From positions 1-64,000 of the forward strand of contig NZ_JAOSZE010000035.1 in NCBI RefSeq assembly GCF_025630775.1: a stretch of 64,000 nt of DNA, read 5' to 3'. Made by a program: the position numbers and the translations under genes. The notes beneath the pieces were generated by a model. That model had not been told where the DNA came from. It made no database searches and saw nothing but the letters and a program-made list of their open reading frames with translations. The DNA comes from Actinoplanes sp. KI2 (GTDB lineage: Bacteria > Actinomycetota > Actinomycetes > Mycobacteriales > Micromonosporaceae). This document shows positions 5,754-62,521 of this stretch, piece by piece. How positions within the stretch are numbered: position 1 is the first letter of the stretch; every line of letters starts with the position of its first letter.

Positions 5754-6773
5754 ATGCCGATCGTCGAGGCTCGTGGCCTCACCAAGGTGTTCCGCCGCCC
5801 GGACAAGGGCTCGGGCCTGAAGGGCTCGGTCAAGCACCTGTTCGCCCGCCGGTACACCGACAAGGTCGCGGTGGACCACGTCGACCTGTCCATCGAGGCG
5901 GGTGAGGCGGTGGCGTACGTCGGGCCCAACGGCGCCGGCAAATCGACCACCGTCAAGCTGCTCAGCGGCATCCTGGTGCCGACCGCGGGCGAGGTGCGCA
6001 TCGACGGGTTGCACCCGCAGCACGACCGGACCACCGTGGCGTACCGGATCGGTGTGCTTTTCGGTCAGCGCACCCAGCTCTGGTGGGACCTGCCGGTGTC
6101 CGAGTCCCTCGCGGTGCTGCGCGACATCTACGGGATCGACCACGCCACCTACCGCAAGCGGCTGGCCCGTTTCGATGAGGTCCTCGAGCTCGGCGAGATC
6201 CTGCCGATCATGGGCCGGAAGCTGTCGCTGGGCCAGCGGATGCGCGCCGACCTGGCCGCGGCGCTGGTGCACGGCCCGCGGGTGGTCTACCTCGACGAGC
6301 CGACCATCGGCCTCGACCTGGCCGTCAAGGACCGGGTCCGCGAGTTCTTCCGCGGCATCCGCGACGAGGGCACCACGGTCATGCTGACCAGCCACGACCT
6401 CGCCGACATCGAGGGCTTCTGCCGCCGGCTGGTGATCATCGACAAGGGACGGATCATCTTCGACGGCGACCTCGAGGCGGTCAAGGACCGGTTCGCCCGC
6501 GAGCGCATCCTGCACGTCGAGACGGCGCAGCCGGTGCCGCTGGAAACCCTGCGGGACTCGCTGCCGGGCGCGGAGGTCACGGCCGAGGAAACCCCGTTGC
6601 GGTACGCCGTGCGCTTCGACCGGTTCGCGATGACGGCCGGCCAGGCGGTGACCGCGCTCGCGGCCCTGACCGAGCTGGTCGACTTCCGGGTCGACGAGCC
6701 CAGCATCGAGGACGTGATCCGCCGGGTGTACTCGGGCGACCTGGTGCTCGACGAGACGGGCGCGCACCGGTGA
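5754..6773 (+). CDS. ABC-2 type exporter, ATP-binding subunit
   Basis: A 339-residue ATPase. Walker A is GPNGAGKST at residues 57-65, the signature loop reads LSLGQRMR near 156, and Walker B is VVYLDEPT followed by the D-loop IGLDL. The switch His lies in TSHDLAD. About 90 residues follow the nucleotide domain and are probably a regulatory tail. Subfamily features are the long basic insert before strand 2 and the QRTQLWWDLP Q-loop region, typical of the actinobacterial three-gene exporters with two six-helix permeases. It overlaps the first permease by 4 bp. Substrate unknown. Confidence 0.93.
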   Translation: MPIVEARGLTKVFRRPDKGSGLKGSVKHLFARRYTDKVAVDHVDLSIEAGEAVAYVGPNGAGKSTTVKLLSGILVPTAGEVRIDGLHPQHDRTTVAYRIGVLFGQRTQLWWDLPVSESLAVLRDIYGIDHATYRKRLARFDEVLELGEILPIMGRKLSLGQRMRADLAAALVHGPRVVYLDEPTIGLDLAVKDRVREFFRGIRDEGTTVMLTSHDLADIEGFCRRLVIIDKGRIIFDGDLEAVKDRFARERILHVETAQPVPLETLRDSLPGAEVTAEETPLRYAVRFDRFAMTAGQAVTALAALTELVDFRVDEPSIEDVIRRVYSGDLVLDETGAHR

Positions 6774-7558
6774 ACGGTTACCGGGCGCTGGCCCGGGCCA
6801 CCGCGCGGGCGGCCCTCACGTACCGGTTCAGCCTGCTGCTCGGCATGGGCGCGGTCCTCGTCCAGCTCGTCGCGCTCCTGGCGGTGTGGCACGTGATCCT
6901 CGCCGAGGCGCCGGTCAACGGCTTCACCTGGCCGCAGATGCGCGCCTACCTGCTCGTGGCGTTCGCGGCCGGCACCCTGGTGTCGATCCTCGGCGACTTC
7001 CGGATGGCCTTCCGCATCCTCGACGGCGACGTCGCGCTCGACCTGGTCAAGCCGATCGACTACCAGAAGGCGCGGCTCGCCGAGTCGATCGGCGGGCTCT
7101 GGATCGAGCTGCTGCTGATCGGCGCCGTGGTCGGTGTCGCGCTGGCGCTCACCGGCGGCGGCGTGGACACCCCGGCCGGGCCGGCGCTGGCCCTGTTCGC
7201 GGTCAGCATGCTGCTGCTCGTACCGCTGAAGTTCCTGATCGTGTACGTGAGCACCCTGGCCTGCTTCTGGACCCAGAACTACATGGGCGTGCAGTGGGCG
7301 CGGCTGGCCGTGGTGAACCTGCTCTCCGGCGCGCTCATCCCGCTGGTGTACCTGCCGCACTGGCTCGCCACCCTCGCGCAGTGGTCGCCGTTCGCCGGGC
7401 TCACCTCGACCCCCGCGCTGATCTTCCTGGGTCGCGTCGGCGTACGGGATGGGTTGGTTCTGGTCGGAGTCCAGCTCGCGTGGGTGCTCGTGCTGTGGTT
7501 CGGCGCCCGCCTGGTGTGGCGGAAAGCGCTGCGCCGGCTCACCGTGAACGGAGGCTGA
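6770..7558 (+). CDS. ABC-2 type permease (first membrane subunit)
   Basis: A 262-residue protein with about six hydrophobic segments, the first at LLLGMGAVLVQLVALLAVWH and the last at VLVGVQLAWVLVLWFGARLV, ending in a basic tail. It starts with GTG inside the stop of the ATPase gene (GTGA overlap), so translation is coupled. Together with the next gene it would form the heterodimeric channel of the exporter. It belongs to the ABC-2 families usually found as adjacent dissimilar permeases. No periplasmic-binding protein or accessory gene is present, which supports export rather than import. Confidence 0.88.
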   Translation: MNGYRALARATARAALTYRFSLLLGMGAVLVQLVALLAVWHVILAEAPVNGFTWPQMRAYLLVAFAAGTLVSILGDFRMAFRILDGDVALDLVKPIDYQKARLAESIGGLWIELLLIGAVVGVALALTGGGVDTPAGPALALFAVSMLLLVPLKFLIVYVSTLACFWTQNYMGVQWARLAVVNLLSGALIPLVYLPHWLATLAQWSPFAGLTSTPALIFLGRVGVRDGLVLVGVQLAWVLVLWFGARLVWRKALRRLTVNGG

Positions 7559-48522: not shown

Positions 48523-48908
48523 CGAGCGGATCGAAACTTAAGGCCGATTTCATCTGCTGAGGTGCGTCACCCTCCTGCCGGACTCCGGCCGGCGTCGAGC
48601 AGAGCATCCTCGCGGCGGCGAAGACCGGCCTGACGCCGTACGCCCGAGGACGTGAATCCGGAGGTGAAGATCGGCACGTACGGCGCGCTCGGGTTCAAGC
48701 CGTGACCCGCGGTGCGATCCTTCTTGATTGTCACACTTTGCGCGGCGTCGCGGTCTTTATTGTCGCTGTTGTGGACCTTATTGGGGCGGCGGCAAACGGT
48801 GGTGGGGCGTATTTCTGTCACATCGATGAACGCTTGACCCCTATAGGGCTCGATGCAAGAATCGCAACTTGGCGGGGGAGCCGGCGCGTGCAACCAGCGG
48901 GGAGATCC
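48523..48908. other. upstream region between the cellulase and cluster regulator genes
   Basis: About 385 bp, the left part high GC, then AT-richer from 48720 to 48900 (TTCTTGATTGTCACACTTTG), consistent with one or two promoters for the LuxR-type gene. No RNA gene or repeat was recognised. A longer open frame (from 48702) precedes the chosen start but lacks coding character. Confidence 0.4.
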
Positions 48909-49589
48909 ATGTTGAGTCTTCAACCAAGGGAACACGCCTCCGAAAAACGCAATGGCAACACTGTTGTGCTGGTGGAGCCAGAAGAGGTCGTGCGCCTCGG
49001 ATTGGTCGCGATGCTGCTGGCAATCGACAGCGTCGACAATGTCGTCTGTTGTGGCGACGCAGAGGAATCCCGTTTCGTCGGCGCGGACGGCTCGGAGATT
49101 CTCGCGGTCTCGTCGCGTGTCGGGCTGGCCGAGCTCGACGAGCTGCGGACGCAGGTCGACGAGGCCGGCATGCGGATGCTGATGCTCCTGCACTCGCTCG
49201 ACGACCTGGCGTACGTGGAGTTCTCGCAGCGGTTCGCGCACGGCGTGGTCATGCTGGAGGACATCACGATCGAGCGGCTACGGCACGCGCTCGACTGGCT
49301 CGACCGGCGCGGGGAGGTCATGCTGCCCGGCGACGTGGCCGGGCGGATCCTCCAGGAGAGCGCCGAGCGCAGGCGGGAACCGGTCCGGCGGCAGCCGGTG
49401 CTGACGCCGCGCGAGAGCAGCATCCTGGCCCTGCTCGCGGAGGGGTACAGCAACAAGCAGATCGCCCCCCGCGTCGGCATCACGCATCACGGGGTGAAGC
49501 GCAACGTGGCGAACATCCTGGCCAAGCTCAACTGCGCCAACCGCACCCAGGCCGTTTCCCTCGCCTTGCACGAAGGCTTGCTCGGCTGA
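48909..49589 (+). CDS. LuxR/NarL-type regulator with degenerate receiver domain
   Basis: A 226-residue protein. The C-terminal HTH is clear (LTPRESSILALLAEGYSNKQ, then HGVKRNVANILAKLNCANRT). The N-terminal ~130 residues follow the receiver fold (VVLVEPEEVVRLGLVAMLLA), but the strand that should end in the phosphate-accepting Asp reads SEILAVSS, with no Asp in place. It therefore probably works without a classic kinase, like other 'atypical' regulators of secondary metabolism. ATG 48909 has GGGGAGAT upstream. It lies beside the terpenoid-type locus and points towards it, so it is the best candidate for its regulator. Confidence 0.8.
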   Translation: MLSLQPREHASEKRNGNTVVLVEPEEVVRLGLVAMLLAIDSVDNVVCCGDAEESRFVGADGSEILAVSSRVGLAELDELRTQVDEAGMRMLMLLHSLDDLAYVEFSQRFAHGVVMLEDITIERLRHALDWLDRRGEVMLPGDVAGRILQESAERRREPVRRQPVLTPRESSILALLAEGYSNKQIAPRVGITHHGVKRNVANILAKLNCANRTQAVSLALHEGLLG

Positions 49590-49971: not shown

Positions 49972-51291
49972 ATGCCGCGTGCCGAGGTGCCTCATTCAAG
50001 TCCATTGAGAATTGCGCTGCTGACCTACCGCGGGAATCCTTTCTGCGGCGGTCAGGGCGTGTACGTCCGGCACCTGAGCCGCGAGCTGGCCGCACTCGGG
50101 CACCGGGTCGAGGTGCTGTCCGGCCCGCCGTATCCGCAGCTCGACGACGGCGTGACCGGGACCGAGGTGCCCAGCCTCGACCTCTACCGGGAGCCCGATC
50201 CGTTCCGCCTGCCGGCCCTGCGCGAGTACCGGGACTGGATCGACGTGCTGGAGGTCGGCGGGATGCTCACCGCCGGGTTCCCCGAGCCGTTCACCTTCTC
50301 GCTGCGCGTCCGGCGGCTGCTGCGCGGGCGGCGGGACCGCTACGACGTCGTGCACGACAACCAGACCCTCGGTTACGGGCTGCTCGGCCTGGACCGGCTT
50401 GGCCTGCCCCTGGTCACCACCGTGCACCACCCGATCCAGATCGATCGGCGGCTGGAGCTGGACGCGGCGACCGGCTGGCGGCGGCTGTCGCTGCGCCGCT
50501 GGTACGGCTTCGTCGGCATGCAGCGACGCGTCGCCCGGCGGTTGCCGCGCATCCTCACCGTCTCCGACTCGTCGGCTGCGGAGATCGTCGCGCACCTCGG
50601 GGTGGCGCCGCACCGGATCGAGACCGTCCCGATCGGCACCGACGCCCAGCGTTTCTCGCCCGGTCCGCGCGATGCACGCCGACCGGGCCGCCTCATCACC
50701 ACCGCGAGCGCCGATGTTCCGCTCAAAGGGCTGCACCGGCTCCTGGAAGCGGTCGCCGTCCTGCGGGGACGGCGGCCGGGCCGGCCGCTGGAGCTCGTGG
50801 TGGTCGGTGAGATCCGTCCCGCCTCGCTGGCGGCGGCACTCATCGCCCGGCACGGGCTGGGCGGTCCCGGCGGCGTCGTCCGCAGCACCGGCCGGATCAG
50901 CGACGCCGACCTGGTCGACGAACTGCGCGCGGCGGAGGTCGCCGTCGTACCGTCGTTGTTCGAGGGTTTCTCGCTGCCGGCGCTGGAGGCGATGGCGTGC
51001 GGCCTCCCGGTGGTGGCGACCACGGCCGGGGGCCTGCCCGAGACGGTCGGGCCGCACGGCGAGGCCGCGTTGCTGGTCCCGCCGGACGACGCCGAGGCGC
51101 TGGCGACCGCGATCGAGACGCTGCTGGACAACCCGGGCCTGCGCGATCGGCTCGGCACGGCCGGCCGGCGCCGGGTTCTCGACGACTTCACCTGGGCGGT
51201 GGCGGCGCGCCGCACCGAGGCGGCGTACCGGAAGGCGATCGACCTCGGGTCCTCGCCGCGGCCGGCCGAGCCCGCGGTCGCGCCGTGCTGA
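49972..51291 (+). CDS. GT4-family glycosyltransferase
   Basis: A 439-residue GT-B protein: MPRAEVPHSSPLRIALLTYR at the start, donor half with GRISDADLVDELRAAEVAVV and the GT4 EX7E-type segment (PSLFEGFSLPALEAMACGLP, then VVATTAGG). The acceptor half carries a Gly-rich loop near residue 24 (GGQGVYVRHLSREL). Members retain sugar stereochemistry, with a UDP- or GDP-sugar as donor; which sugar is unknown. It ends by overlapping the next gene by 7 bp. Function in the locus is probably glycosylation of the terpenoid or an associated lipid carrier. Confidence 0.9.
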   Translation: MPRAEVPHSSPLRIALLTYRGNPFCGGQGVYVRHLSRELAALGHRVEVLSGPPYPQLDDGVTGTEVPSLDLYREPDPFRLPALREYRDWIDVLEVGGMLTAGFPEPFTFSLRVRRLLRGRRDRYDVVHDNQTLGYGLLGLDRLGLPLVTTVHHPIQIDRRLELDAATGWRRLSLRRWYGFVGMQRRVARRLPRILTVSDSSAAEIVAHLGVAPHRIETVPIGTDAQRFSPGPRDARRPGRLITTASADVPLKGLHRLLEAVAVLRGRRPGRPLELVVVGEIRPASLAAALIARHGLGGPGGVVRSTGRISDADLVDELRAAEVAVVPSLFEGFSLPALEAMACGLPVVATTAGGLPETVGPHGEAALLVPPDDAEALATAIETLLDNPGLRDRLGTAGRRRVLDDFTWAVAARRTEAAYRKAIDLGSSPRPAEPAVAPC

Positions 51292-52064
51292 CCGTCGACT
51301 TCGGCCGGCTGGGCATCCGCCCGGGCGACCGGGTGCTCGACCTCGGCGCCGGGCCCGGCCGGCATGCCGCCGAGTGCTACCGGCGTGGCGCCCGGGTCGT
51401 CGCCCTGGATCTCGGCCTCGCCGATCTGACACAGGCGTCGGCGACGTTCGCGGCGATGCGAGCGGCCGGCGAGGCCGCCGAGGGCGGCGCGGCCGCGGCG
51501 GTGCTCGCCGACGCCCTCGCCGTCCCGTTCCCCGACGAAACCTTCGACGTGGTCATCGCCGCCGAGGTGCTCGAGCACATCGTCGCCGACGCCGCGGTGG
51601 TGCGCGAGCTGGTCCGGGTGCTGCGGCCCGACGGCACGCTGGTGGTGACGGTGCCCCGGTGGTGGCCGGAGCGCATCTGCTGGGCGCTCTCCGAGCGCTA
51701 CCACACCGTCGAGGGCGGTCACGTGCGGATCTACCGTCGCGGTGCGCTGGCCGGGATGATCCGTACCGCTGGGTTGCGTCCGTCGGCCCGGCACCACGCG
51801 CACGCCCTGCACTCGCCGTACTGGTGGCTCAAATGCCTTTTCGGCGTCGACAACGAGCGGGCCGCGATTCCCCGGCACTACCACCGGTTCCTGGTCTACG
51901 ACATCATGCGCCGCCCCCGGTGGACCAGGACGGTGGAGCGGATGCTCGATCCCGTGCTGGGCAAGAGCCTGGTGCTGTACTTCACCAAGTCCGCCGCGCC
52001 CCGAAACTTCACCAAGCCCGCCGCGTCCCGAAACTTCACCAAGCCCGCCGCGAGTGGCGGGTGA
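51285..52064 (+). CDS. class I SAM-dependent methyltransferase
   Basis: A 259-residue methyltransferase with motif I VLDLGAGPGRHAAEC, acidic strand end RVVALDLGLAD, LADALAVPFPDETFDVV and the downstream motif VLRPDGTLVVTVPRWWPE. The start is the GTG overlapping the stop of the GT4 gene (7-bp overlap) and it is therefore translationally coupled. The C-terminus is unusual: three tandem copies of a 9-residue unit ending in FTKPAAS-like sequence, from a 27-bp DNA repeat. It overlaps the next gene by 4 bp. Acceptor unknown. Confidence 0.9.
   Translation: MLTVDFGRLGIRPGDRVLDLGAGPGRHAAECYRRGARVVALDLGLADLTQASATFAAMRAAGEAAEGGAAAAVLADALAVPFPDETFDVVIAAEVLEHIVADAAVVRELVRVLRPDGTLVVTVPRWWPERICWALSERYHTVEGGHVRIYRRGALAGMIRTAGLRPSARHHAHALHSPYWWLKCLFGVDNERAAIPRHYHRFLVYDIMRRPRWTRTVERMLDPVLGKSLVLYFTKSAAPRNFTKPAASRNFTKPAASGG
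51981..52061 (+). repeat. three tandem 27-bp repeats at the methyltransferase 3' end
   Basis: Copies start at 51981, 52008 and 52035, unit beginning TTCACCAAGCCCGCCGCG. In frame; they encode FTK(S/P)AA(P/S)RN and a final degenerate copy. Copy changes would alter only the tail of the protein. Confidence 0.9.
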
Positions 52065-53080
52065 GCGCCCCGCGGCCGGGCCGGGCCGGGCTCGCCCGCA
52101 CCGCGGACTGGATCGCCGGCGTGCAGCGAGCCGACGGCGCGATTCCCTGGTTCCCCGGTGGACAGCTCGACCCGTGGGACCACGTGGAGGCCGCGCTGGG
52201 CCTGGACACCCAGGGACGGCACGCCGAGGCGGCCGCGGCCTACGACTGGCTGCGGCGTACCCAGAATGCCGACGGCTCCTGGTTCCGGGAATACCAGGGC
52301 GCGGCGGTCACCGATGACACCCGGGAGGCCAACTTCACCGCGTACGTCGCCGTGGGTCTGTGGTATCACTACCGCCGCACCGGCGACGAGACCTTCCTGC
52401 GCGGCATGTGGCCGGCGCTGTGCCGGGCCCTCGGCTTCGTGCTCGGCCTGCAGGCGCCCGGCGGCGAGGTCCGGTGGGCCCGGGGCCGCGACGGAAAGGC
52501 GGCGGGCGAGGCGCTGCTCACCGGGTGCGCCAGCATCTACCACAGCCTCGGCTGCGCACAACGCATCGCCGAAGCGCTCGGCGAGGAGCAGCCGGACTGG
52601 GATCTGGCCGCCACCACCCTCGGCCACGCGCTGCTGCGCCACCCCGACCGCTTCGATCCTCGCGACCGCTTCGCGATGGACTGGTACTACCCGGTCCTCG
52701 GCGGCGCGGTGCGCGGGCCGGCGGCGGCCGCCCTGATGGACGGCGGCTGGGACACGTTCGTCGTGCCCGGGCTCGGCGTGCGCTGCGTGAGCGACCGTCC
52801 CTGGGTCACCGTCGCCGAGACCTGCGAGGCGGTGCTGTCGCTGTGCGCGATCGGTGACCGGGAACGCGGCGCCGGCCTCTTCGACGCGATCGGGCACCTG
52901 CGCGCGGCCGACGGGTCGTACTGGACCGGATACGTCTATCCGGACGACGCCCGCTGGCCGGTGGAGAGGACCACGTGGACCGCCGGGGCGGTGCTACTGG
53001 CCGCCGCCATGCTCGACGGCGACCCGGTCGTCGAGGAGCTCTTCGGCGGCGCGGGCGCCGCCGACCCAGGCTGCGTCGGG

Positions 53081-53107
<27 letters not shown>
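52061..53107 (+). CDS. alpha/alpha-toroid protein (prenyltransferase/six-hairpin glycosidase-like)
   Basis: A 348-residue protein built of helical repeats (WIAGVQRADGAIPWFPGG, QNADGSWFREYQG, NFTAYVAVGLWYHYRRTGDE, FAMDWYYPVLGGAVRG). The QxADGxW/F motif and repeated hairpins place it in the (alpha/alpha)6 toroid superfamily shared by squalene cyclases and six-hairpin glycosidases. Genes of this kind, next to a GT4 and a methyltransferase, recur in actinomycetes and are often annotated 'prenyltransferase', without proven activity. GTGA overlap couples it to the methyltransferase gene. Its 3' end lies in a 90-bp tandem repeat. Confidence 0.75.
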
Positions 53108-54928
<1,821 letters not shown>

Positions 54929-54932
<4 letters not shown>

Positions 54933-55951
54933 GGATGCTCCTCGTTCGCAGGTACCAGCACTGGGGTGGGCGCGCCGTCGCCCGGATCGAACTCGTGCCG
55001 CAGCCGCAGCCGGCGCTGCGCGACCCAGGTGACCAGCAGCGCCGCGGTGGTTGCGGCGAGCCCGAGCCGGCCGCCCCCGCCGAGCGCCACCAGCGAACCG
55101 GCGGCGACGATCCGCTCGAGGCAGAGCCACTCGTGCGCGCCCAGCGCCGCGCGCCGGGTCAGGCCGTCGCCCGAGATCAGCAGCCGGGCACAGACGACCG
55201 CCACGGTCAGCACGGCGACGGAGCCGAGCAGCGCCGCCGCGGCGGGCACCGCGACCCCGAGGATCGCCGGCACGGCGGCGAGCAGCGCGGCCCAGCCCAG
55301 GAACAGCGCCGCGACCACGCGCTCGCTGTGCACCAGGCCGCGCCGTACCGGAAGGGTCCGGTAACCGCCGGCGGCGTCGCCCTCGACGTCCCGCAACGCC
55401 CCGACCAGGTTCGAGGCGGCGTCGTGCAGGCAGAACACCGCAGCGGCGGCCACCAGCGGCAGGGAGATCCGGCCGGCGCCGAGCACCGCTCCGAACAGGA
55501 ACGCACAGGAGGTGAGCGTGCCGCGCACCAGGTTGCCCAGCACGCCCCGGCTCTTGAAGAAGGTGTTGTACGACAGACCGACCACGGTGGCGACGCCGAC
55601 GATCGCGACGGCCTGCCAGCGCACCGCGAGCGTCCACCCGGCACCCGCCGCGACGAGGAGCACCATCATGGTCAGCGCGGTGGCCGGTCGCATCCGCCCG
55701 GAGGGAATCGGCCGCTGCGGCTTGGCCACGGCATCCAGCTCGCGGTCGAAGTAGTCGCCGCCGTAGAGGCCGGCGAGCCAGCCGAGGGTCGGGATGGCCC
55801 AGGCCGCCAGCAGCCGCCCGGCGTCGTGCCGGCCGCCGGCCAGCCCGGCGCCGGCCAGTCCGACCAGGCCCACGTAGCAGCTGGTGTACGGCCGCCACGT
55901 CTCCAGATGGCTGCCGGCGACGACGAGCAGGCGATCCGGTCGTACGTTCAT
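54929..55951 (-). CDS. UbiA-family membrane prenyltransferase
   Basis: A 340-residue membrane protein with about eight to nine helices. The first Asp-rich motif is GGDYFDRELDAVAKPQRPIP at about residues 64-83 (NDxxD-type, with Gly in place of Asn) and the second is NLVGALRDVEGDAAGGYRTL. These bind the Mg2+-diphosphate of a prenyl donor, probably made by the GGPP-synthase-like protein next door. The acceptor could be aromatic, a sugar-phosphate or a glycerol derivative; nothing here decides which. It diverges from the polyprenyl synthase gene; GGGGAGG precedes the ATG. Confidence 0.92.
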
Positions 55952-56178
55952 CAGTCACCTCCCCGCTTTTCCCCCGAATGCTCGCGCCGCGGTCCGGACG
56001 CCGGGAATCCCCGCCGGGCAGCGTGAACGACCACCCCGGACGGGCACCCCCGACGGCGATCGACGGTCGGGCTGCCTGATCGGTCACTCCCAACGGAATT
56101 GATTTGGCCCGATGCCCCGGCGAAGCATCGTTCGCGAGCTGGACCAATCGTGTTCGAACCGTTGGGGGGACCGTGCGG

Positions 56179-57216
56179 ATGGAAATGTCGACAGGCGCGC
56201 AGGTGATGACCGCGGTCGGAGCGCCGGAAGAGGGTACGAGCGCCACGGCGGTGACCCGGATCCTCCCGGAACGGCTGGGCGCGCGGTGGCTCGCGGAGCA
56301 GAACCTGCTCGGCGCGATGTGCCGGCACGCGACCGCGGCCGGTGGCAAACTCTTCCGGCCGGTTCTCCTGCTGGAGTCGGCGATGGCCGTCGGCGGGCGG
56401 ATCGAGCAGGTCCTCCCGGCCGCGCTGGGCACCGAGAGCGGCCACGTGGCCAGCCTCGTGCACGACGACATCATCGACAACGACATGCTGCGCCGGGGCC
56501 GGCCGACCGTGCACGCGCAGTTCGGTGCCGACAACGCGATCGTGGCCGGCGACGCCCTGCTGTTCGACCTGTTCCTCTGCCTCGCCGAGTGCCGGCAGAC
56601 GGGCGCGCGGGACGACCGGATCGTCGCCGCGCTGGAGGTGGCCGCCCGGGCCGGCCTGGACCTGTGCCGCGGCCAGAGCCTGGAGTACGAGATCACCGAG
56701 AGCGGCGCCCGGGACCTCGACGCGTACCTGCAGATGATCGCGCTGAAGACCGGTGCGCTGTTCCGCGGCGCCTGCCAGAGCGGCGCGCTCCTCGGCGGCG
56801 GCACCGACGCGGAGGTCGAGGCGGTCGGCCGGTACGGCGACGAGCTCGGCATCGCCTTCCAGATGTGCGACGACCTGTTCACCTACACCGGGCAGAACGA
56901 CGAGGCGATCGGCAAGTCGGTGCTCAGCGACATCCGCAACAAGCGGATGACCCTGCCGGCGCTGCTGGCGTTCCGCGACGCCGACGAGGAGTCCCGGGTG
57001 CTGCTCGAACGGGCCTTCGACAGCGACCTCGACCCGAGCGAGGCGCTGTCGCTGCTCAGCCAGGTCATGGTCCGCACCGGTGCGGTGGCGTCGGCCCGGA
57101 CCGTCGCGGTGCACCACGCCGAGGCGGCGAAGGAGGCGCTGACGGTGCTGGCGCCCAGCGCCCACCGGGATCGGCTGGCCCAGTACGCCGACCTCGCCGT
57201 CGAGCGCGTGCGCTGA
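56179..57216 (+). CDS. polyprenyl diphosphate synthase (isoprenyl chain elongation)
   Basis: A 345-residue trans-isoprenyl diphosphate synthase. First Asp-rich motif HDDIIDND at residues 95-102, second FQMCDDLFTYTGQND, and the conserved GGKLFRPVLLLES. The length and the region before the first motif are compatible with a C15-C25 product; exact chain length cannot be read. The start is placed at ATG 56179; GTG 56173, closer to GGGGGG, is possible. It heads the terpenoid operon, followed by an FAD protein (31 bp gap). Confidence 0.92.
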   Translation: MEMSTGAQVMTAVGAPEEGTSATAVTRILPERLGARWLAEQNLLGAMCRHATAAGGKLFRPVLLLESAMAVGGRIEQVLPAALGTESGHVASLVHDDIIDNDMLRRGRPTVHAQFGADNAIVAGDALLFDLFLCLAECRQTGARDDRIVAALEVAARAGLDLCRGQSLEYEITESGARDLDAYLQMIALKTGALFRGACQSGALLGGGTDAEVEAVGRYGDELGIAFQMCDDLFTYTGQNDEAIGKSVLSDIRNKRMTLPALLAFRDADEESRVLLERAFDSDLDPSEALSLLSQVMVRTGAVASARTVAVHHAEAAKEALTVLAPSAHRDRLAQYADLAVERVR

Positions 57217-57247
57217 CCCGACCGGCGGCGACGAGCGGAGACTGACC

Positions 57248-58525
57248 GTGGACTACGACGTGGTGATCTGCGGCGCGGGCGTGGGCGGGCTGACCCTCGC
57301 CACCGCGCTCGGCCAGCGCGGCCACCGTGTCCTGGTGCTGGAGAAGCAGCGCCGGTTCCGCATGATGCACAAGGGCGAGCTGATCCAGCCGCGGTCGCTG
57401 CACGTGCTGGACTCCCTCGGGCTGCTGGGACCATTGAGCGCGGGCGGCGCGCTGCCGGTGGCGGCGCTGGCGGTGCTCGGGCACGACGGCGCACCCCTGG
57501 TGTCGCTCGACTACGGGATGATTCCCGGCCCGTACCGGCACGGGATGGTGCAGAGCTACCGCGAGATGCTGACCACCATCGCCGACTCCCTCGGCGGCGC
57601 CGTCACGCTCTGGACCGGCGCCCGGGCGGACGGCCTGCTGCGCGACGACGCCGGCCGGATCTGCGGGGTCCGGGTCCAGCGTGGCGGCGAGCAGGACACG
57701 GTGACCGCGGCGCTGACCGTGGCGGCCGACGGGCACGCGTCCCGGCTCCGCGACGCGGCCGGCCTCGCCGTGCCGGCCCACCGCTACGGTCACCAGCTCG
57801 TCGGCTTCGAGCTCGCGGACGCGCCGGCCCTCGGCAACCGGATGAACGCGTACCTGACGCGGGACGGGCTCCGGGCCCTGTTCGCGTTGCCCGGCGGTCG
57901 CGCCCGTCTCTACGTGCAGGTGCCGGCCGGCGCCTTCCGCGACGTGGGCCGGGCCGGTGCGCCGCGCTGGGCCGACGACCTGCTGCGCGGGATGCCGGCG
58001 CTGGAGCCGGTGGCGGAGCCGCTGCGGCAGGGGCTCGACACGGTTCAGGTGCTCTCGGCGTACCGGTTCGTCGCCCCGCGCTGGGCCCTGCCGGGACTGG
58101 CCCTGCTCGGCGACGCCGCGCACTGCGTGCACCCGATGGTCGGCCAGGGCATGAACGCCGCGATCCGGGACGCGTGGACGCTGGGCGCGTGGCTGCCCGG
58201 CGCCCGTGAGTTCGAGCCGGCCCGGGTCGACGCGGCGCTGGCCGGATACGAGCGGCAACGGCGCCCGGACCTGCAGTTCACCGCGCGGCTGAGCCACAAC
58301 CTGGCCACGCTGCTGACCGGCACGTCGCGCGTCGGCAGCGCGCTGCGCCCGTCCCTGCTGCGCCGCAACCAGACCAACGACCGGCTGCGGCGGCAGATCA
58401 CCGAGAACGTGGCGGGGCTGACCGCCCGCCGCTTCACGGTCCGCGACTGGCTCTCGGCCTCCGGGCTGATCCACGGTTCCAAAACTTCGGCGAACAACGC
58501 ACGGACGGAGGAGGTCAACCGGTGA
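57248..58525 (+). CDS. FAD-dependent oxidoreductase (PHBH/geranylgeranyl reductase-like)
   Basis: A 425-residue flavoprotein. The FAD-binding GAGVGGLTLATALGQRGH is at the N-terminus, the second motif VAADGHASRLRDAAG lies near residue 158, and the third is LLGDAAHCVHPMVGQGMN. The fold is that of PHBH-type monooxygenases, which also includes geranylgeranyl reductases and squalene epoxidase-like enzymes. In this operon it could hydroxylate, epoxidise or reduce the prenyl product. GTG start, 4-bp overlap with dxs downstream (GTGA), so coupled. Confidence 0.9.
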   Translation: MDYDVVICGAGVGGLTLATALGQRGHRVLVLEKQRRFRMMHKGELIQPRSLHVLDSLGLLGPLSAGGALPVAALAVLGHDGAPLVSLDYGMIPGPYRHGMVQSYREMLTTIADSLGGAVTLWTGARADGLLRDDAGRICGVRVQRGGEQDTVTAALTVAADGHASRLRDAAGLAVPAHRYGHQLVGFELADAPALGNRMNAYLTRDGLRALFALPGGRARLYVQVPAGAFRDVGRAGAPRWADDLLRGMPALEPVAEPLRQGLDTVQVLSAYRFVAPRWALPGLALLGDAAHCVHPMVGQGMNAAIRDAWTLGAWLPGAREFEPARVDAALAGYERQRRPDLQFTARLSHNLATLLTGTSRVGSALRPSLLRRNQTNDRLRRQITENVAGLTARRFTVRDWLSASGLIHGSKTSANNARTEEVNR

Positions 58526-60453
58526 ATGTTCTTTTCACCCCCACCCGCGAGGCGGCGGCAACAGCCGAGCCGGCGGGGATGAACCTGGCGGCGCTGCGGG
58601 CGATGAGCCCGCCCCAACTGAGCGAGCTGGCGGTGCGGCTGCGTCAGCGGATCCTGGAGGTGACCGCGGGCCGCGGGGGGCACGTCGGTTCCAATCTCGG
58701 CATCGTCGAGGTGACGCTGGCCCTGCACCGCTCGTTCGACTCACCGCACGACCGGCTGCTGTTCGACACCGGCCACCAGACGTACCCGCACAAGCTGCTG
58801 ACCGGACGCTGGGACGCCTTCGACACGCTGCGCACCCGCGACGGGCTCTCCGGGTACGCCAGCCAGGCCGAGAGCCGGCACGACGTGATCGAGAACTCGC
58901 ACGCGTCGACCGCGCTGTCCTACGCCGACGGCCTGGCTCGGGCCTACCGGCTGCGCGGTGAGCGGGACCGGTGGGTCGTCCCGATCATCGGCGACGGTGC
59001 CCTGACCGGCGGCATGGCGTGGGAGGCGCTCAACAACCTCGGCGCGTCCGGCCGGTCCAACGTCGTCGTGGTGCTCAACGACAACGGCCGCTCGTACGCC
59101 CCGACGATCGGTGCTCTCGCGCGGCACCTCGCGATCTCGCGGGGCGGCCTGCCGATCGGTGACCTGCCCGGCGACGCGGCGCCGGCCGGGGCGGCCGCTC
59201 CGGAGACGCCGGGTGCGCTGTTCACCGCGATGGGCCTGACTTACATCGGCCCGGTCGACGGCCACGACATCGCCGCCCTGGAGGCCGCTCTGGCCCGGGC
59301 GAAGAGCGCCGGCCCGGCGCTGGTCCACGTGGTGACCCGCAAGGGTCTCGGCTTTCCGTCGGCGGAGGCCGACGACGAGGAGAAGTACCACGCACCGGGC
59401 GTCTTCGACCTGGTCACCGGCGCGCGGAGCGCTCCGGCGGCGGGCGCCCCGGCCACCTGGACGGGTGTTTTCGGCGACGAGCTGGTGCGGGTCGGCGCCG
59501 AGCGCGACGACGTCGTGGCGATCACCGCGGCGATGCCCGGCCCCACCGGTCTGCTGCGTTTCGGCGAGCGCTTCCCGGAGCGCCTGATCGACGTCGGAAT
59601 AGCCGAGCAGCACGCCATGACCTCGGCGGCCGGCCTGGCGATGGGCGGCCTGCGCCCGGTCGTCGCGCTGTACGCCACGTTCCTCAACCGCGCCTTCGAC
59701 CAGCTGCTGATGGATGCGGCGCTGCACCGGCTGCCGGTCACCGTGGCGCTCGACCGGGCGGGAGTCACCGGCGACGACGGCGCGAGCCACAACGGCATGT
59801 GGGACCTGGCGCTGCTTCAGGTCGTGCCGGGACTGCGCATCGCCGCGCCCCGGGACGGCACCCGGCTGCGCGCCCTGCTGCGGGAGTCGCTGGACGTCAC
59901 CGACGGGCCGACCGTGATCCGCTTCCCGAAGGGTTCCACGCCGGCCGACGTGCCGGCCGTCGCCCGCCTGGGAAGTCTCGACGTGCTGCGCGAGAGCGGC
60001 GTCGGCGACGTGCTCTTCGTGTCGGTCGGCGCGATGGCCGGGGCCGCGATGGCCGCCGCCGCGCTGCTGCACGCGCAGGGGCTCGGCGCGACCGTCGTCG
60101 ACCCGCGCTGGGTCCGGCCCCTCGACCCGGCCCTGGTCGCGCTCGCCCGCCGGCACCGGCTGGTCACCGTCGTCGAGGACGGCTGCCGCTGCGGCGGTGT
60201 CGGGGACGCGGTGGCACGGCTGCTGCGCGACGCGGGCGTCGACACCCCGGTGCGCACCCTCGGGCTGCCGGCGGAGTTCCTCGCCCACGCCAAGCGCGAC
60301 GAGATCCTCGAGGAGCGCCACCTCACCGGCCCCCATCTGGCCCGGGTGACCACCGAGTTCCTGGCTCGGCGGTTCCCGGTGCGCTGGCCACTGCCCGAGA
60401 CCCTGGTGGGCCGTTTCCTGCTGAACGGCACGAGCGCAAGGGACCAGACCTGA
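58522..60453 (+). CDS. dxs: 1-deoxy-D-xylulose-5-phosphate synthase
   Basis: A 643-residue ThDP enzyme that makes DXP from pyruvate and glyceraldehyde-3-phosphate, the entry step of the MEP pathway. The ThDP site [18 protein letters not shown] lies near residue 154, [20 protein letters not shown] is near the start, and the transketolase-like pyrimidine and C-terminal domains follow ([15 protein letters not shown]). Full length. It overlaps the FAD gene (4 bp) and the ispG start (TGATG). A second, chromosomal dxs is expected elsewhere; this copy would raise flux to the locus. Confidence 0.96.
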
Positions 60454-61571
60454 TGACCCAGCTCTTCATGCCGACCTTCCCGCCCCCGACGCTCGCGCCC
60501 CGCCGCCGGACCCGGCAGCTGCAGGTCGGCACGGTCGGCGTGGGCAGCGAACATCCGGTCTCCGTGCAGTCGATGACCACCACCCTCACCTCCGACGTCA
60601 ACGCGACCCTGCAGCAGATCGCCGAGCTGACCGCGGCGGGGTGCGACATCGTCCGGGTGGCGTGCCCGAGCCAGGACGACGCGGACGCGCTGCCCGACAT
60701 CGCGCGCAAAGCACAGATCCCGGTGATCGCCGACATTCATTTCCAGCCCCGGTACGTGTTCGCCGCGATCGAGGCCGGGTGTGCCGCGGTGCGGGTGAAT
60801 CCCGGCAACATCCGCCGCTTCGACGACCAGGTCCGGGAGATCGCCCAGGCCGCGAAGGAGCACGGCACGCCGATCCGGATCGGGGTCAACGCCGGCTCGC
60901 TCGACGCGCGGCTGCTGAAGAAGTACGGCCGGGCGACGCCGGAGGCGCTGGCCGAGTCGGCGATGTGGGAGGCCGGGCTCTTCGCCGAGCACGACTTCCA
61001 CGACGTCAAGATCTCGGTGAAGCACAACGACCCGGTGGTGATGATCCGGGCGTACGAGATCCTCGCCGAGCAGTGCGACTACCCGCTGCACCTCGGCGTG
61101 ACCGAGGCCGGGCCGGCCTTCCAGGGCACGATCAAGTCGTCGGTCGCCTTCGGCGCGCTGCTGCGCCAGGGCATCGGCGACACGATCCGGGTGTCGCTGT
61201 CCGCGCCGCCGGTCGAGGAGGTCAAGGTCGGCGCGCAGATCCTGCAGTCGCTCAACCTGCGCCCGCGCAAGCTGGAGATCGTGTCCTGCCCCGCCTGCGG
61301 TCGCGCCCAGGTCGACGTCTACAAGCTCGCCGAGGAGGTGACCGCCGGGCTGGACGGCATGCCCGTACCGCTGCGGGTCGCGGTCATGGGCTGCGTGGTG
61401 AACGGGCCCGGCGAGGCCCGCGAGGCCGACCTGGGGGTGGCCTCGGGCAACGGCAAGGGCCAGATCTTCGTGAAGGGCAAGGTCATCAAGACCGTGCCCG
61501 AGTCGCAGATCGTGGAAACCCTGATCGAGGAGGCCATGCGGCTGGCCGAGGAGGAAGGTGACGCTTCGTGA
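60453..61571 (+). CDS. ispG: 4-hydroxy-3-methylbut-2-enyl diphosphate synthase (flavodoxin)
   Basis: A 372-residue protein that converts MEcPP to HMBPP in the MEP pathway using a [4Fe-4S] cluster. Cluster cysteines lie in [12 protein letters not shown] and [12 protein letters not shown]. The TIM-barrel region carries [19 protein letters not shown] and [10 protein letters not shown]. Single-barrel bacterial form. Starts at the ATG inside the dxs stop (TGATG), so coupled. A housekeeping copy elsewhere is likely. Confidence 0.96.
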
Positions 61572-62521
61572 GCGACCAGACGCGGCGGGTCCTGCTCGCC
61601 AAGCCCCGGGGTTACTGTGCCGGCGTCGAGCGGGCGGTGCGGACCGTGGAGCTCGCGCTGCAGCGGTACGGGCCGCCGATCTACGTACGCAAGCAGATCG
61701 TCCACAACAGCCACGTCGTTCGTACCCTGGAGCAGCAGGGCGTGATATTCATCGACGAGACGAACGAGGCGCCGCGCGGTGCGGTCGTGGTGTTCTCCGC
61801 CCACGGTGTCGCTCCGGTCGTCCACCAGGAAGCCGCGGCGCTCGACCTGCGGACCATCGACGCGACCTGCCCGCTGGTGACCAAGGTGCACAACGAGGCA
61901 CGGCGTTTCGCGGCCGAGGACTACGACATCCTCCTGATCGGCCACGAGGGCCACGAGGAGGTGATCGGAACCGCCGGTGAGGCACCCGAGCACGTCCAGC
62001 TCGTCGACGGCCCGGCCGAGGCGGCCGCGGTGCGGGTGCGCGACGGGCGCAGGGTGGCGTGGTTGTCGCAGACCACCCTGTCGGTGACCGAGACCCGCGA
62101 GACCGTCGAGGCGCTGCGGGACCGCTTTCCGGACCTGGCCGGGCCCGCATCCGACGACATCTGCTATGCCACGCAGAATCGGCAGACCGCCGTGCGCACC
62201 ATCGCCGCGGACTCCGACCTGGTGCTGGTGGTCGGCTCCGGCAACTCCTCCAACTCGCGCCGGCTGGTCGAGGTCGCGCTGGAGGCCGGCGCGGGCGCCG
62301 CATACCTGATCGACGACGCCGGCGAGTTCCGTCCCGAGTGGCTGCAGGACGTCCGCACGGTCGGCCTCACCAGCGGCGCCTCCGTGCCCGCGGTGCTCGT
62401 GGACGACCTGCTGCGGGTGCTGGCGGGGCACGGGTTCGGCACCGTCGAGGACGTGGAGTCGGTGCCCGAGGACGTGCACTTCGGGCTGCCCCGGGAGGTC
62501 CGCGACCTGGACCGGGGCTGA
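61568..62521 (+). CDS. ispH: 4-hydroxy-3-methylbut-2-enyl diphosphate reductase
   Basis: A 317-residue iron-sulfur enzyme making IPP and DMAPP from HMBPP. The three cluster cysteines are Cys17 ([11 protein letters not shown]), Cys101 ([11 protein letters not shown]) and Cys199 ([11 protein letters not shown]). HNSHVVRTL, the [10 protein letters not shown]-like region ([13 protein letters not shown]) and [15 protein letters not shown] are also conserved. It overlaps ispG by 4 bp (GTGA). With dxs and ispG it covers the first and the last two MEP steps; dxr, ispD, ispE and ispF are not in the window. Confidence 0.96.

Follow-up and report, generated by a model that had tools for sequence, protein, structure and literature searches.

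What is a run of three overlapping genes, coding for a glycosyltransferase, a methyltransferase and a toroid-shaped protein, doing in the genome of Actinoplanes sp. KI2? The genes lie in the 64,000-nucleotide stretch analysed here (hereafter the window; positions 1 to 64,000 of contig NZ_JAOSZE010000035.1), which belongs to an assembly of 10.06 Mb in 201 contigs (GCF_025630775.1). All three are on the forward strand: manT (49972–51291; ATG start, 439 amino acids), the glycosyltransferase family 4 (GT4) gene; pmeT3 (51285–52064; GTG start), the gene of an S-adenosylmethionine (SAM) methyltransferase; and mmpH (52061–53107; GTG start, 348 residues), the gene of the toroid protein. The original prediction, made from the DNA alone, considered the trio recurrent but unexplained and the role of the toroid protein open. 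The trio itself is real, and the unit proves to be a quartet, since a fourth gene had been missed: meT1 (53243–53890), on the reverse strand and convergent with the other three. Together, the four genes very probably constitute a set for copying and recycling intracellular methylmannose polysaccharide (MMP), an alpha-(1->4)-linked chain of 3-O-methylmannose with 11–14 units in mycobacteria (PMC9883506). For the enzymes of Mycolicibacterium hassiacum, the activities of MmpH and ManT and the action of MeT1 on MmpH products have been demonstrated (PMC9883506).

The toroid protein and its nearest characterised relative

At an E-value of 0.001, Pfam names the GT4 and SAM methyltransferase families for the first two products of the trio and no family for the toroid protein. 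A search with phmmer against the Protein Data Bank (PDB) placed the toroid protein next to the MMP hydrolase MmpH of M. hassiacum (chain 7qsj_A) with an E-value of 1.7e-112, while the next chain reached only 0.045; 169 of 308 residues are identical (55%). Ten binding-site residues of MmpH have been named, that is D47, W49, D50, F102, T163, M215, Y219, E262, E265 and W315 (PMC9883506), and all ten are kept in the window protein, as D37, W39, D40, F92, T154, M206, Y210, E253, E256 and W306, respectively. The catalytic residues D47/D50 and E262 thus correspond to D37, D40 and E253. Since MmpH of M. hassiacum is a homologue whose enzymatic function has been characterised (PMC9883506), the trio can no longer be called unexplained, nor the role of its last member open.

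The predicted structure leads to the same protein. The AlphaFold model of window MmpH (predicted local distance difference test, pLDDT, 87.5; predicted template-modelling score, pTM, 0.88; alignment of 16 rows) superposes on 7qsj with Z 50.9 and a root-mean-square deviation of 1.5 Å over 333 residues, and Foldseek gives 7qsj a query template-modelling (TM) score of 0.90–0.91, well ahead of 8pak, the entry considered for a squalene-hopene-type fold (TM 0.60–0.62). Dextran dextrinase, glycoside hydrolase (GH) families GH63 and GH94 and glucoamylase, among others, follow at Z 27–35, in line with the earlier remark that the motifs of the toroid fit six-hairpin glycosidases. The fold is shared with GH15 and GH63, and no Pfam match assigns the sequence to either family. 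Judged by sequence and model, the toroid protein is the (alpha/alpha)6 endo-mannosidase MmpH and not a prenyltransferase.

In the original prediction such toroid proteins are said to be commonly labelled prenyltransferases. In another conceivable role, the trio would tailor a terpenoid and the toroid, as a terpene-cyclase- or prenyltransferase-like protein, would serve an isoprenoid cluster situated just downstream (54929–62521). The nearness of these isoprenoid genes, a QW-like stretch in the toroid (QNADGSW) and the presence of squalene-hopene cyclase and drimenyl diphosphate synthase among the weaker Foldseek matches speak for it. Nevertheless, these two cyclases and oxidosqualene cyclase reach query TM scores of only 0.56–0.61 against the model, a similar stretch (QRPDGSW) occurs in MmpH 7qsj itself, and the toroid retains every one of the ten named MmpH residues. 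No Pfam prenyltransferase or squalene-cyclase profile matches the toroid at E 0.001, and the DXDD motif, with which squalene-hopene-type cyclases carry out protonation, is absent from its 348 residues as read by eye. Moreover, the isoprenoid and sulfotransferase genes of the window turned up in none of the other mapped MMP loci except as two traces: L084 has a weak match to the polyprenyl synthase, and part of a DXS gene lies at the edge of L187. A terpenoid role therefore has next to no likelihood, and the identity of the toroid as a prenyltransferase or terpene cyclase was rejected on the evidence of Pfam, the lack of DXDD, and the Foldseek and Z rankings. As a guess, QNADGSW may explain the prenyltransferase labels.

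The fold matches after MmpH also raise the thought of a catabolic alpha-mannosidase or glucoamylase-like enzyme acting on an imported glycan and merely co-transcribed with the glycosyltransferase and methyltransferase genes. GH63, GH94 and glucoamylase folds come next after MmpH, and the only NCBIfam match of the toroid is the oligosaccharide amylase TIGR01577, at 46.9 bits and hence far under its cut-off of 820.7. The linkage of mmpH to manT, pmeT3 and meT1 over phylum-wide distances argues against such an enzyme, which is very improbable.

Assignment as MmpH is accompanied by some variation among lineages. In 155 aligned MmpH rows, which contain two repeated places (L009/L091 and L043/L096), E262, E265, W49, M215 and Y219 are invariant. 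D47 is Asp in 153 rows and changed in two, to Asn in L109 and, together with D50, to Asn in L147. Asn replaces D50 in 24 rows, each of them from a class of the phylum other than the window's (loci L144–L147 and L168–L187); T163 is changed in three rows; W315 is Tyr in 17 and a gap in two; and the F102 position is occupied by His, Val, Met, Cys or Thr in 40. Both F102 and D50 are kept in the window. Which of D47 and D50 is the catalytic acid was left undecided (PMC9883506); conservation across the rows appears to favour D47, although L109 and L147 do not agree with this entirely.

The quartet and its proposed mechanism

The remaining members of the set were likewise compared with PDB entries, and each of the three matches (MmpH, ManT and MeT1) stands far above the next family. 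Window ManT matches 7qsg_A with an E-value of 4.7e-130 (next chain 1.2e-26) and shares 224 of 406 residues with it (55%). The PDB title of 7qsg is 'D-inositol 3-phosphate glycosyltransferase'; the entry is taken as ManT since all ManT residues mentioned in PMC9883506 agree with its numbering. Nine of the ten residues compared, which are those named there, are kept (G15, H142, K240, D293, E313, G314, F315, L317 and E321), and L291 is replaced by Ile. Hence manT would encode a GT4 alpha-(1->4)-mannosyltransferase, which lengthens MMP with GDP-mannose as donor.

MeT1 of the window, a Methyltransf_24 protein in Pfam, matches 6g7d, 6g80 and 6h40 at an E-value of 7e-82 and no other PDB entry at E 0.001, with 130 of 200 residues identical to 6g7d (65%). 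This entry, titled only 'Methyltransferase domain protein', is presumably MeT1 of M. hassiacum, so that the product of meT1 would be the 1-O-methyltransferase responsible for capping MMP at its reducing end. For pMeT3 (MeT3 in the counts below), Pfam reports the class I SAM families Methyltransf_11, 23, 25 and 31, and PDB sequence matches are to generic methyltransferases only. Its model (pLDDT 84.0) resembles many SAM methyltransferases at Z 18–23 (best 22.6), none standing out. It is 50–57% identical to the corresponding proteins of loci L129, L131 and L133–L140, from a family (f2) whose order, fatty acid synthase I (FAS-I) and closeness to the enzymes of M. hassiacum suggest that it is the mycobacterial one. 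In mapped loci pmeT3 sits between manT and mmpH, and from this position and the literature pMeT3 is a putative MMP 3-O-methyltransferase.

According to the published model, a mature chain serves as the source of its own primers. MmpH would cleave mature MMP within the chain, and the fragments, which are 4–5-mers and 7–8-mers with the mycobacterial enzyme (PMC9883506), would act as primers. ManT would elongate them with alpha-(1->4)-linked mannose from GDP-mannose, pMeT3 would very likely methylate O-3 of the newly added units, and MeT1 would methylate the free O-1 of fragments that had lost their cap. In this way, one old MMP chain would prime new daughter chains. The window enzymes would do the same recycling job as in mycobacteria, and the Actinoplanes host presumably makes MMP or an acylated form of it.

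Coding composition is strong in all three trio genes, as expected of genuine genes in a high-GC bacterium, with a GC content of 0.91–0.93 at the third codon position versus 0.53–0.57 at the second. The stop of manT and the start of pmeT3 overlap by exactly 7 bp (GTGCTGA, 51285–51291), the stop of pmeT3 and the start of mmpH by exactly 4 bp (GTGA, 52061–52064), both on the forward strand. The start of pmeT3 is supported by Leu-Thr after the start codon in all 11 aligned rows and by ATG, GTG or TTG at its position in 150 of 151 loci. A 7 bp overlap is possible because a Met-Leu-Thr beginning, xTG CTG A, contains the upstream TGA stop. By script count, 72 of the 151 loci have a first overlap of exactly 7 bp and 99 have a second of exactly 4 bp; among these 151, the window, the SAR324 metagenome-assembled genome (MAG) described below, L009/L091 and L043/L096 are each counted twice. 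Since the MmpH start was set at whichever in-frame start codon lay closest to the preceding stop, the second count is biased to small overlaps. The trio is thus recurrent, as predicted. That its proteins are made in equal ratio, as had been claimed, does not follow from the overlaps, which suggest at most translational coupling of ManT, pMeT3 and MmpH and imply no ratio.

Two tandem repeats accompany these genes. The first, of 27 bp in 2.7 copies (51979–52052, forward strand), encodes the C-terminus of pMeT3 in FTKPAASRN-like units, and of the 155 MeT3 loci checked only the window's has the repeated FTK unit. The second, of 90 bp in 2.4 copies with 95% match (53080–53291), covers the 3' end of mmpH as well as that of meT1.

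Several points weigh against the assignment of the quartet to MMP. No MMP product was seen in the Actinoplanes host; pMeT3 is only putative even in mycobacteria (PMC9883506). The variation at F102 and D50 may mean that substrate detail differs among lineages. The window's meT1 is atypical in following a sulfotransferase gene and ubiA in an apparent operon. In addition, MeT1 was not found in the available flanks of 8 of 80, 14 of 29 and 2 of 20 loci in three of the groups compared below.

Neighbourhoods and distribution of the set

Gene neighbourhoods were compared in five groups: 80 named loci, mostly of Streptomycetaceae; 23 loci of the window's family, its own included; 29 phylum loci with short flanks; 20 loci of other classes, from 40 genomes and chosen among those not yet given as loci, with 7 more falling among the short-flank 29; and four loci of the phylum of the SAR324 MAG, one of them also among the 80. 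ManT, MeT3 and MeT1 accompany MmpH in 78, 80 and 72 of the named loci, where some misses are contig ends, and in 22, 23 and 23 of the family loci. The corresponding counts are 29, 29 and 15 for the short-flank loci, 19, 20 and 18 for the other classes, and four each for the SAR324-phylum loci, one MeT1 there being broken off after 46 residues by the end of its contig. The 8, 14 and 2 loci mentioned above belong to the named, short-flank and other-class groups, respectively. Where present, meT1 and mmpH are on opposite strands in all 72 named loci and in 22 of the 23 family loci; it is mostly downstream and convergent in actinobacterial loci, and upstream and divergent in SAR324 loci. A divergent Micromonosporaceae set (L109, genome G042) has meT1 on the mmpH strand and Asn at D47.

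A fifth common gene was not found: in a comparison of 30 loci, no further family occurred in more than eight, barring antisense and overlapping reading frames, which cluster too because raw open reading frames were used. By similarity, a TetR-type gene lies upstream of manT on the opposite strand in 65 of the 80 named loci (for instance at 6831–7589 in L075, from Streptomyces coeruleorubidus ATCC 13740), and the one member tested against Pfam is TetR_C_20. No TetR-type gene stands beside the window's set, where a LuxR-type gene (48702–49589) is upstream of manT instead.

On the other side of the window's set, a Sulfotransfer_3 sulfotransferase gene (53904–54920, reverse strand) is in an apparent operon with meT1. 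The reverse-strand genes ubiA, sulfotransferase and meT1 follow one another with operon-like gaps of 8 bp and 13 bp. The isoprenoid cluster adjoining the MMP set comprises ubiA (54929–55951, reverse strand), a polyprenyl synthase (56104–57216), an FAD-binding oxygenase-like gene (57248–58525), DXS (58522–60453), GcpE/IspG (ending at 61571) and LytB/IspH (61568–62521). The same machinery might make a decorated product, which would refine rather than replace the MMP assignment: MMP could be acetylated, as reported for Streptomyces griseus (PMC9883506), or sulfated through the gene 13 bp from meT1. Also favourable to decoration is a gene for a hexapeptide-repeat transferase that is transcribed divergently from manT in all four SAR324-phylum loci. 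Nevertheless, a match to the window's sulfotransferase is present in 55 of the 250 family genomes, the window's included, and in 19 relatives examined besides the window's own, neither manT nor mmpH nor meT1 lies within some 1.5 kb, although a weak 33% methyltransferase match is present in one; a core place of the sulfotransferase in the set was rejected on this ground. Sulfotransferase and UbiA matches beside meT1 occur in no other MMP locus available, many with short flanks, and for the sulfotransferase in particular the other family loci gave no match next to meT1, less than 1 kb being available beyond that gene. No acetyltransferase adjoins the window's set. A decorated product is on balance rather unlikely here.

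The quartet assigned to MMP is widespread in Actinomycetota. A strong mmpH match was found in 23 of 250 genomes of the window's family, once seven of the 30 matches at threshold had been set aside as noise (E 8e-5 to 9e-4, 53–72 residues), and in 65 of 396 genomes of the phylum, 40 of them outside the window's class. Homologues of MmpH were noted earlier in Corynebacterium, Rhodococcus, Streptomyces and Nocardia (PMC9883506). Among the matches listed from the open-licence literature, no report of the MMP set in Actinoplanes or SAR324 was found. The kind of gene set is thus already known, and its reach into other classes and SAR324 is new, as is the FAS-I result given below. Nothing supports a plasmid origin: the sole plasmid record matched is an 11.85 Mb Nonomuraea replicon of chromosome size.

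Outside the phylum, a MAG titled SAR324 cluster bacterium (L078; GC 0.44) carries the full set, 42–53% identical to that of the window; its name and phylum grouping are those of the genome collection itself. In its phylum mmpH occurs in 4 of 52 genomes, and the other three MmpH proteins are 75–85% identical to that of the MAG. Contamination is unlikely, since four of the 52 genomes have the set with this degree of identity, the GC content is 0.44 and the neighbours look chromosomal by eye. The hexapeptide-repeat transferase lies at 6743–7570 in L078, 6283–7005 in L193, 12382–13104 in L194 and 228–983 in L195 (one tested against Pfam, the others recognised by similarity); it is a candidate MMP O-acetyltransferase. 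Among the MMP loci compared besides these four, none gave a match to the L078 protein at E 1e-8. A thiolase gene adjoins meT1 in three of these loci, and in the fourth the contig ends there.

In a quick tree of MmpH and MeT3 with SH-aLRT supports, the rows from SAR324 come together in a single clade (100), which falls within the actinobacterial rows with supports of 86–90, under the 95 mark. This suggests that the set was transferred into the SAR324 lineage, provisionally, because the SAR324 rows differ in letter make-up. The window groups with six other Micromonosporaceae rows from five distinct genomes (99), and this clade is sister to Streptomycetaceae (97). Thirteen rows of the same genus form a separate clade (100) joined weakly (83–89) to family f2, which suggests that two lineages of the MMP set occur in the genus. 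The MmpH and MeT3 of L096 (genome G238) are identical to those of L043 (Actinoplanes flavus).

FAS-I and comparison with known systems

In vitro, in work on mycobacterial enzymes, MMP and the methylglucose lipopolysaccharide (MGLP) can regulate FAS-I, from which a role in regulating lipid metabolism in mycobacteria has been hypothesised (PMC2674218). With the FAS-I helical domain PF08354 as stand-in marker, the test covered 80 of 91 genomes in which mmpH has a strong match (all except G527, G532, G542, G561, G570, G597, G606, G614, G622, G630 and G638). The marker occurred in 12, namely all 11 genomes of family f2 and one of f7, a sample that is phylogenetically clustered, with 11 of 12 positives from one family. 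It was not found in the other 68, including the window's genome, 22 others of its family and the four of the SAR324 phylum; among 14 control genomes only Corynebacterium glutamicum had it. Therefore, FAS-I regulation cannot be the general role of MMP, and the standing idea that MMP exists for this purpose is weakened, while in mycobacteria themselves MMP may regulate FAS-I.

Taken together, these observations allow a broader reading, offered tentatively and with a probability somewhat short of even. MMP would be old and widespread in Actinomycetota rather than a mycobacterial speciality, would work without FAS-I and would have some other general job, for instance carrying or buffering, in soluble form, the acyl chains made by fatty acid synthase II (FAS-II), or acting as a cold-stress solute. 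It would have passed to the SAR324 lineage, where the linked hexapeptide transferase would make an acetylated form like that of S. griseus. As the set moves between lineages while the model needs an old chain, some enzyme must start MMP de novo; since no gene common to all loci encodes such a starter, it would belong either to the quartet itself or to the housekeeping enzymes. Because the set is kept in genomes without the FAS-I marker, genetically easy hosts such as Streptomyces could be used to find the role of MMP and how the first chain is primed. For annotation, the assignment also settles an open label in many genomes: a toroid gene beside GT4 and methyltransferase genes would encode an MMP hydrolase, and the adjacent methyltransferases would be MMP enzymes.

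The closest known system is the MMP cluster of M. hassiacum and M. smegmatis, which has all four genes, manT, pmeT3, mmpH and meT1 (PMC9883506). The window agrees with M. hassiacum in the identities given above for ManT, MmpH and MeT1, in nine of ten and ten of ten site residues, and in the MmpH fold. In contrast, a convergent meT1 placed after a sulfotransferase gene, the exact 7 and 4 bp overlaps, the C-terminal tandem repeats and the lack of a FAS-I marker set it apart from that cluster. Acetylated MMP is ascribed to S. griseus in the legend of Fig. 1 of PMC9883506; other Streptomyces and Streptomycetaceae carry the quartet and are sister to the window's lineage in the quick tree, whereas the window's set has no adjacent acetyltransferase. 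The mycobacterial MGLP pathway yields the same class of intracellular polymethylated polysaccharide, with glucose in MGLP instead of the mannose of MMP, and MmpH is reported not to cut MGLP (PMC9883506). Finally, the (alpha/alpha)6-barrel glycosidases and phosphorylases of GH15, GH63 and GH94 share the fold at the Z values given above, with only 10–18% identity, and differ from MmpH, an endo-mannosidase specific for methylated mannan.

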